Below the pieces are notes generated by a model. That model worked only from the letters and a program-made list of their open reading frames with translations, was not told the origin of the DNA and ran no database searches. A program made the position numbers and the translations under genes. From the NCBI RefSeq assembly GCF_024296665.1, contig NZ_CP100762.1, forward strand, positions 186,001 through 250,000: a stretch of DNA of 64,000 nucleotides. Direction: 5' to 3'. Positions 5,849-30,450 of this stretch are shown in pieces (the first letter of the stretch is position 1; each line of letters opens with the position of its first letter). Source of the stretch: Salinilacihabitans rarus (GTDB lineage Archaea; Halobacteriota; Halobacteria; Halobacteriales; Natrialbaceae).

Positions 5849-6091
5849 ATGAAAATCGAAGTGATCGGACCCGGCTGTCCACGGTGCAAGAAGACCGAAC
5901 GGCGCGTCGAGGACGCGCTCGAAGCGCTCGACGGTCGCGTCGACGCGACCGTCGAGAAAGTCAGCGACCAGATGGAGATCATCGACCGCGGCGTCATGCA
6001 CACGCCAGCCGTCGCCGTCGACGGCGACGTGAAGACGGAGGGCGATATTCCCGAGGTCGACCGACTGGTGGAGATCTTCCGGGCCGCCTGA
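5849..6091 (+). CDS. Small thioredoxin-like redox-active disulfide protein
   Basis: An 80-residue single-domain thioredoxin fold of the MTH895 type. The redox pair is in GPGCPRCKK (C11 and C14), and the cis-proline segment MHTPAVAVDG is clear. It begins at the first ATG after the permease stop and sits in the same operon. In related clusters this small thioredoxin accompanies ArsP/DUF318 permeases, probably reducing or delivering the thiol-reactive substrate. It lacks the dimer-forming extension of glutaredoxins and any signal peptide, so it should be cytoplasmic. The family is confident; the partner function is inferred from context. Confidence 0.88.
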   Translation: MKIEVIGPGCPRCKKTERRVEDALEALDGRVDATVEKVSDQMEIIDRGVMHTPAVAVDGDVKTEGDIPEVDRLVEIFRAA

Positions 6092-29351: not shown

Positions 29352-30116
29352 ATGCCCAGCCGCCGGCTCGTCGCCCTCGCCCTCGCCGGACTCGGACTGC
29401 TCGCGTCGACCGGGACGGCGACCGCCCAGTCGGTCAACCGCGACCTCATCGAGGGTCTGGAGTTCCAGTTGCTGTACGTCGCGCTCCCGCTCTCGCTGTT
29501 CGTCCTCACCGTCCTCCTCTACGCCACCGTCAGGTTCTACGACAACGACGACCCCCAGCCGACCCCGGAGGACCCCGCCCTCGAGATCACGTGGACGGCC
29601 GCGACCGCGATCATCCTCGTGTTCGTCGGCCTCGCCGGCTACTCCGTGCTCGTCAGCCCCTACGTCTCCCCGTCCCAGCCGGCGGACCTCGCCGGCGGCG
29701 AGGAGGGCGGCGTCGAGAGCGTCGAGGACCTCCCCGAGACCGACGACGAGGTCGTCCACGTCCGGGGCTACCAGTGGGGGTGGGAGGTGACCTACCCGGA
29801 CGCGAACGTGACGACGAGCGACGAAATCGTGCTCCCCGCCGACGAGGACGTGACGTTCTGGCTCACCACCGACGACGTCATGCACTCGCTGTTCGTCTCG
29901 GACCTCGGGGTCAAGCAGGACGCCTACCCCGGGGAGTACACCCGCGCGCGGACGCACGTCTACGAAACCGGAGCGTACGACGCCCGCTGTACGGAGTTCT
30001 GCGGCGCCGGCCACTCCCGGATGGAGGCGACGGTCGTCGTCGTTCCACAGGAGGAGTACGACGCGTGGCTCGAGGAGAACGCGGATTCGGAGAACGCCAG
30101 CGCGCCGGGCGTCTGA
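29352..30116 (+). CDS. coxB: Heme-copper oxidase subunit II
   Basis: 254 residues. A signal-like helix (1-26) and a two-helix hairpin (about 36-100) anchor the extracytoplasmic cupredoxin domain. The binuclear CuA site is complete: H in DDVMHSLFVSDL, then CTEFCGAGHSRMEA with both Cys, Glu, His and Met ligands. The aromatic electron-entry stretch RGYQWGWEVTYP is present. It receives electrons from a halocyanin-type or cytochrome donor. A TATA-like GTATTTCC lies about 30 bp upstream. No covalent heme motif (CxxCH), so not a caa3 form. Confidence 0.94.
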   Translation: MPSRRLVALALAGLGLLASTGTATAQSVNRDLIEGLEFQLLYVALPLSLFVLTVLLYATVRFYDNDDPQPTPEDPALEITWTAATAIILVFVGLAGYSVLVSPYVSPSQPADLAGGEEGGVESVEDLPETDDEVVHVRGYQWGWEVTYPDANVTTSDEIVLPADEDVTFWLTTDDVMHSLFVSDLGVKQDAYPGEYTRARTHVYETGAYDARCTEFCGAGHSRMEATVVVVPQEEYDAWLEENADSENASAPGV

Positions 30117-30146
30117 CACCGGAAAGCGTTAAACGACGCGATCACC

Positions 30147-30154
30147 TATATAAA
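30147..30154 (+). promoter_or_regulatory. Strong TATA box of a non-coding transcription unit
   Basis: TATATAAA, the best TATA box in the window, 30 bp after the coxB stop. No protein gene follows on the plus strand: transcription would start near 30178 and run into the hairpin array. Only a 14-codon frame beginning at 30198 lies close to the start. Confidence 0.65.
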
Positions 30155-30177
30155 CTGCGTGCCTCTGTCCCCGTCCG

Positions 30178-30450
30178 AGCAGACCCACACGGGTGCGATG
30201 ACGGCACGGCGAACCCGGGCGCGCGACACTCACGAGTCGTGATTCCTCGCGAATCACGCGCCGCGAGACGGCGTCAGCCGTCTCGCCAGTCGGTGGTTCC
30301 TGTGGAACCACCAGTTCGGCGGCTCGCGCCGCCTCACAAGCCGCGACTCCCCAAGAGTCGCGCAACGCCCGGCACGAGGGTTAGCCAGCCGACGCGGCAC
30401 GCCGCCACGGGATGAGGCTGGACGTTAGTGTTCCGGGCGACACTTCTTTC
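30178..30450 (+). ncRNA. Candidate structured RNA with five consecutive perfect hairpins
   Basis: The stretch 30117-30559 (443 bp) has no convincing protein gene. Within 125 nt there are five perfect stem-loops: H1 arms 30238-30245/30251-30258; H2 30263-30272/30277-30286 (10 bp, loop GTCA); H3 30292-30300/30304-30312 (9 bp); H4 30318-30323/30328-30333 (6 bp); H5 30342-30349/30355-30362 (8 bp). H1 and H5 are the same stem with two compensated transitions, and so are the first six pairs of H3 and H4. A TATA box precedes the unit and a small hairpin (arms 30427-30431/30440-30444) followed by TCTTTC could end it. A repeat element of haloarchaeal genomes is the main alternative; boundaries are estimates. 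Confidence 0.45.

Follow-up and report, generated by a model that had tools for sequence, protein, structure and literature searches.

The array of five perfect hairpins between SL1 and SL2 in the window (the whole stretch of 64,000 nucleotides of Salinilacihabitans rarus DNA that was analysed) is a spacer inside an RNA of known kind, not a new RNA class. That RNA, at positions 30155-30445, is almost certainly a haloarchaeal two-hairpin box H/ACA guide RNA, the ortholog of HP1/HP2 (Hvo1/Hvo2) of Haloferax volcanii, and for this locus the identity is as firm as sequence allows. The guide RNA itself is ordinary and nearly universal in haloarchaea; its variable spacer is little described. What looked like a mystery array would accordingly be read as part of a well-defined, ribosome-modifying RNA, with a corrected promoter.

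BLAST detected homologs in 159 of 292 genomes of the class, and most of the matches are to the initial 52 nt of the query, which lie outside the array. Read side by side, these homologs have two conserved blocks around a spacer of very variable length. Both blocks contain a lower stem, an internal loop, an upper stem with a k-turn-like GATGA motif and an ACA (or AUA) box, and two flanking blocks with this anatomy point to an archaeal box H/ACA guide RNA (Table 1). The original prediction had treated the array as the element itself and suggested a new structured RNA. It was right about a structured, non-coding RNA but not about the novelty, since H/ACA guide RNAs are a known kind, and its limits were too narrow, because the RNA also includes the conserved blocks that flank the array (30155-30230 and 30365-30445). 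The search that it had proposed, for intergenic homologs that keep the stems, gave a positive result.

Table 1. Features of the predicted guide RNA, its spacer and its surroundings (positions in the window).
Feature	Position	Strand	Basis or detail
coxB	29352-30116	+	same-strand upstream neighbour, context only
Predicted promoter GGAAAGCGTTAAAC	30121-30134	+	conservation in 178 homologous upstreams
BRE-like GGAAAG	30121-30126	+	GAAA at 30122-30125 conserved
TATA box TTAAA	30129-30133	+	~26 nt ahead of RNA start
TATATAAA, 'TATA box' of the original prediction	30147-30154	+	TA element adjoining start site
SL1, H/ACA guide hairpin 1 (HP1/Hvo1)	30155-30230	+	alignment of 30 genomes, covariation, target ranking
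SL1 short 5' guide GUC	30167-30169	+	
SL1 putative k-turn CCGAG with GATGA	30175-30179 with 30197-30201	+	
SL1 3' guide AACCCGG	30212-30218	+	
SL1 ACA box	30226-30228	+	
Spacer	30231-30364	+	134 nt, five perfect stem-loops between SL1 and SL2
Spacer hairpin 1	30238-30258	+	8 bp arm, 5-nt loop
Spacer hairpin 2	30263-30286	+	10 bp arm, 4-nt loop
Spacer hairpin 3	30292-30312	+	9 bp arm, 3-nt loop
Spacer hairpin 4	30318-30333	+	6 bp arm, 4-nt loop
Spacer hairpin 5	30342-30362	+	8 bp arm, 5-nt loop
SL2, H/ACA guide hairpin 2 (HP2/Hvo2)	30365-30445	+	alignment, covariation, model R1, target ranking
SL2 5' guide GAGGGTTA	30376-30383	+	
SL2 putative k-turn GATGA	30411-30415	+	
SL2 3' guide GTTAGTG	30424-30430	+	
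SL2 ACA box	30440-30442	+	
T-rich stretch after ACA box, possible transcription end	30444-30450	+	sequence; homologs T-enriched there

A covariance model of SL2 (R1) has hits in 384 of the 392 genomes sampled from the class and in 84 of 86 genera, with a single copy in nearly all cases; the source genus holds one genome. SL1 followed by SL2 on the same strand was found in 178 loci; this order, and the S. rarus targets at E. coli 1915/1917 and 2586, agree with the definition of HP1/HP2 (PMC2584109). A CBF5 model scored above its cut-off in the S. rarus genome itself (G000:C1:1235500-1236387). With the window as query, Rfam 15 gave no match at the gathering score, and a cut-off as permissive as E <= 5 brought up no H/ACA family. 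A covariance model and a guide/target map are now provided for this nearly universal haloarchaeal RNA, which is unmatched in Rfam. One genome, G193, carries two SL2 copies of equal score on one contig (C1:1714774-1714854 and 3469975-3470055), where nearly all others have one. Three nearly complete haloarchaeal genomes (G034, G268, G290), draft assemblies of 30-120 contigs, have no SL2 match, which may reflect either gaps in the assemblies or a true loss.

The SL1 block is conserved as TGCGTGCC...AACCCGGGCGCGCGACA and the SL2 block as CGCCCGGCACGAGGGTTAGCC...GTTAGTGTTCCGGGCGACA. In the alignment of 30 genomes, the guide and k-turn bases of SL1 are invariant or nearly so, and the guides of SL2 are likewise invariant. 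CCGAG/GATGA of SL1 and GATGA of SL2 are nearly invariant and, judged by their sequence, are putative L7Ae k-turns. The box reads AUA instead of ACA in 2 of the 30 genomes for SL1 and in 7 of the 30 for SL2. With the same 30 genomes, RNAalifold folds each hairpin with an internal loop between its lower and upper stem, and covariation was found in the stems of both (in SL1, in the lower stem). Each hairpin also folds as expected when taken alone. In an unconstrained fold of the whole 295 nt, the 5' arm of SL1 pairs with the SL2 region and the two modules are not both formed. Because this minimum-energy fold joins SL1 to SL2, the two would fold apart in the cell only with the help of proteins or through the order of folding. 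At the 3' end, the weak hairpin that had been proposed at 30427-30450 is instead the 3' strand of SL2 with its ACA box; the T-rich stretch behind it may still terminate transcription, and T is enriched right after SL2 in the homologs (0.45 at the first position).

All 507 U of the S. rarus 23S rRNA were scored for bipartite pairing with the guides. SL2 placed U1947 at rank 1 (8 + 4 contiguous pairs) and U1949 at rank 3 (6 + 4 contiguous pairs), while SL1 placed U2612 at rank 1 (7 pairs on the 3' side and 3 on the 5' side). By their surrounding sequence, these three positions were assigned to E. coli 1915, 1917 and 2586, respectively. The 5' guide pairing of SL1 is short in this genome, with 3 contiguous pairs. 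From the ACA box to the guide-target junction there are 16 nt for SL2/U1947, 14 nt for SL2/U1949 and 14 nt for SL1/U2612. These best targets coincide with the pseudouridine sites that this RNA has been assigned in halobacteria. In S. rarus, SL1 and SL2 would each bind Cbf5, Nop10, Gar1 and L7Ae through the k-turn and the ACA box, and the resulting RNPs would present U2612, U1947 and U1949 of the 23S rRNA for isomerisation to pseudouridine.

The H/ACA sRNA of Haloferax volcanii was reportedly named sR-h45 by Blaby et al. in 2011. The S. rarus spacer has 134 nt and five perfect hairpins, and the H. volcanii spacer could be compared with it by its description as a 'long spacer' only. Otherwise the S. 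rarus RNA is like HP1/HP2 of H. volcanii, with two H/ACA hairpins in the same order, the same 23S targets and a long spacer (PMC2584109, PMC4652768, PMC6490895). The two hairpins were predicted in H. volcanii and other halobacteria, with the same targets and a 'long spacer', by Grosjean et al. (2008), and HP1 was assigned to H. marismortui 2621 (PMC2584109). The same pair was named Hvo1 and Hvo2, and H. volcanii is among the organisms listed as fully validated by experiment (PMC4652768). Both hairpins were detected on one transcript (PMC6490895), and transcription and modification have been reported in Haloferax (PMC6490895, PMC4652768). In contrast, Pf7/Pab40 of Pyrococcus has three hairpins, which are adjacent in Thermococcales and lack the long spacer; HP2 is homologous to stem III of Pf7, and HP1 apparently to stem II (PMC2584109). 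In Archaeoglobus, a related third motif of the H/ACA sRNA Afu4, likened here by description only, guides the 1915-equivalent position (PMC4652768).

Position-specific conservation was read from 178 upstream regions aligned at the SL1 start. They share a BRE-like GAAA at -33 to -30, a TATA element TTAA(A) at -26 to -22 and TA at -8/-7; the profile is A-rich at -32 to -30, and T/T/A/A at -26 to -23 reach 0.7-1.35 bits. Contrary to the original prediction, which saw a very good TATA box in TATATAAA, this stretch adjoins the 5' arm of the RNA, and only its TA at -8/-7 (30147-30148) is conserved. It cannot be the TATA box, because a start ~25 nt downstream would fall inside SL1 and remove its 5' arm; the conserved TATA box is the TTAAA listed in Table 1. 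Transcription would proceed from this BRE/TATA promoter and start near 30155. A scan for sigma-70-type promoters and terminators, of a type unsuited to archaea, gave no match. Of the 121 loci that are 1.9 kb or longer, 25 have a hit for the neighbouring gene coxB, each time upstream and on the same strand, and in 24 of these 25 it lies 41-260 bp from the RNA.

The five perfect hairpins of the original prediction are all present, with arms of 8, 10, 9, 6 and 8 bp and loops of 3-5 nt. They are real and far beyond chance. Perfect stems of 6 bp or longer take up 82 of 136 nt in the array. When the whole 64-kb window was resampled 20 times with a first-order Markov model, the densest 136-nt stretch of each resampling had 38-56 nt in such stems. 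Relative to dinucleotide shuffles, 30178-30450 folds with an energy lower by 3.7 standard deviations; for the spacer, fold z is -6.4, with 5 perfect hairpins versus 0.9 in the shuffles. A hidden tandem repeat was considered and rejected: an alignment of hairpin 1 with hairpin 5 agrees at 21 of 30 positions, a score that 31 of 300 shuffles reach, so that the similarity is not significant and the earlier statement that the array has no constant repeat holds. After the array, the window is densest in perfect hairpins at 5901-6036 (66 of 136 nt), a stretch that overlaps several open frames.

In the 178 distinct loci that contain SL1 as well as SL2, spacer length runs from 1 to 199 nt (median 42), and in several genomes it is no more than 1-6 nt. 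Spacers that reach 60 nt number 63; they contain on average 3.0 perfect hairpins versus 0.8 in dinucleotide shuffles and have 37% of their bases in perfect stems versus 8%, with a median fold z of -3.2. Spacers of at least 90 nt occur in seven sampled families (f1, f2, f3, f4, f6, f8 and f9) and also in named Saliphagus, Halovivax and Halovenus records. The known 'long spacer' is a fast-evolving hairpin array in roughly one third of these loci. In the literature on halobacterial HP1/HP2 we found it described as a 'long spacer' only, and found no description of a hairpin array as a structured spacer. An alternation of hairpin and connector such as GACGGC-NNNN-GCCGTC-TCGGCA recurs in several families, and the compared spacers have no invariant loop or stem sequence. 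Two spacers, of a Halovivax sp. and of Natronoglomus (L098, L101), open with a short tandem run of TTGCGG/TTGCAG that is followed by hairpins.

When read by hand, the nearest array (L129, from Saliphagus infecundisoli) keeps the order of the five hairpins, with several stems altered on both arms. A common hairpin order in homologs, as had been anticipated, fails as a general rule given spacers of 1-199 nt; among the arrays read, only Saliphagus keeps it. Compensatory changes were counted in 46 non-overlapping linker pairs chosen by similarity, and the counts depend on the linker alignments. In these pairs, 561 stem pairs are unchanged, 43 have become a different Watson-Crick pair through changes on both sides, 34 stay standard in other ways and 105 are broken, many of the latter in the least similar, poorly alignable linker pairs. 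Changes on both sides were observed 60 times, versus 23.9 expected with independent sides. The share of G-U pairs, compared with regard to a DNA- or RNA-level origin, is 6% in the spacers, close to the 7-9% of SL1/SL2.

Three spacers (L102, L012, L128) contain stretches of 21-34 nt that are duplicated internally with no more than 1 mismatch, which indicates that arrays can grow by duplication. In L012, the duplicated copy takes in the first bases of the lower stem of SL2. Within genus g34, spacers range from ~21 to 125 nt: three loci have ~21-27 nt (L203, L205, L209) versus 105-125 nt in three others (L021, L204, L210), with 25-27 nt in L203 and L209 versus 123-125 nt in L021 and L210. This range within one genus points to fast turnover of the spacer.

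Taken together, the excess of hairpins, the compensatory changes and the duplications make the array look like a structurally maintained spacer with fast turnover. The reading that we favour, although tentatively, is that the array acts as a self-folding structural insulator, in which closed local hairpins would prevent pairing between spacer and guide pockets, and the array would hold the two guide RNPs apart. Its structure would be maintained, while sequence, length and hairpin number would turn over quickly, partly by duplication. With somewhat greater reserve, we suggest that this lineage-specific array of perfect hairpins may be kept by selection on pairing, as a functional structured spacer that serves as insulator or RNP-spacing element. 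The array spacer would then allow a test of how selection can act on RNA structure where the sequence itself is not conserved. Since spacers of 1-6 nt exist, no array is needed for the basic function. A serious rival, which we consider quite possible if rather doubtful, is neutral turnover of palindromes at the DNA level. The hairpins would then be by-products of template switching that perfects quasi-palindromes and of local duplication, with little selection and no role in the RNA. Perfect arms, near-exact internal duplications, the tolerance of spacers of 1-6 nt and the rapid length change inside one genus (25-27 versus 123-125 nt) are what such a process might leave behind. However, it accounts less readily for the surplus of structure seen in the majority of long spacers from seven families, for the complementary double changes and for the presence of some G-U pairs. 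The complementary changes are not decisive against it, because template switching could also produce them. Alternatively, the hairpins might have a separate function, such as protein binding sites or extra RNA contacts, and be tolerated inside the guide RNA. The similar alternation of hairpins and connectors across several families would agree with this, but the lack of an invariant loop or stem sequence, the many genomes without an array and the absence of the two hairpins searched from the rest of the S. rarus genome make it improbable.

The same two exact-hairpin patterns, each matching the S. rarus genome at this locus only, lend no support to a multi-site protein sponge and argue against a dispersed haloarchaeal hairpin element, both of which had been proposed. 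A dispersed or mobile element is very improbable also given the position of the array between two guide hairpins. In its favour, three genomes of genus g2 have a 27-nt near-exact match to 30311-30337 elsewhere, which in Natrinema ejinorense (L033), where it is exact, lies antisense to what looks like RNase P RNA. A link to RNase P was rejected, as the RNase P RNA of S. rarus does not share the stretch; for this reason the Natrinema match is probably due to chance between GC-rich hairpins. Scarcely credible, finally, is a small protein gene on either strand. An open frame is present, for example one of 78 codons on the minus strand (30129-30365), but the homologous spacers of 1-199 nt do not keep a frame, and it is the stems, guides and k-turns that are conserved instead.
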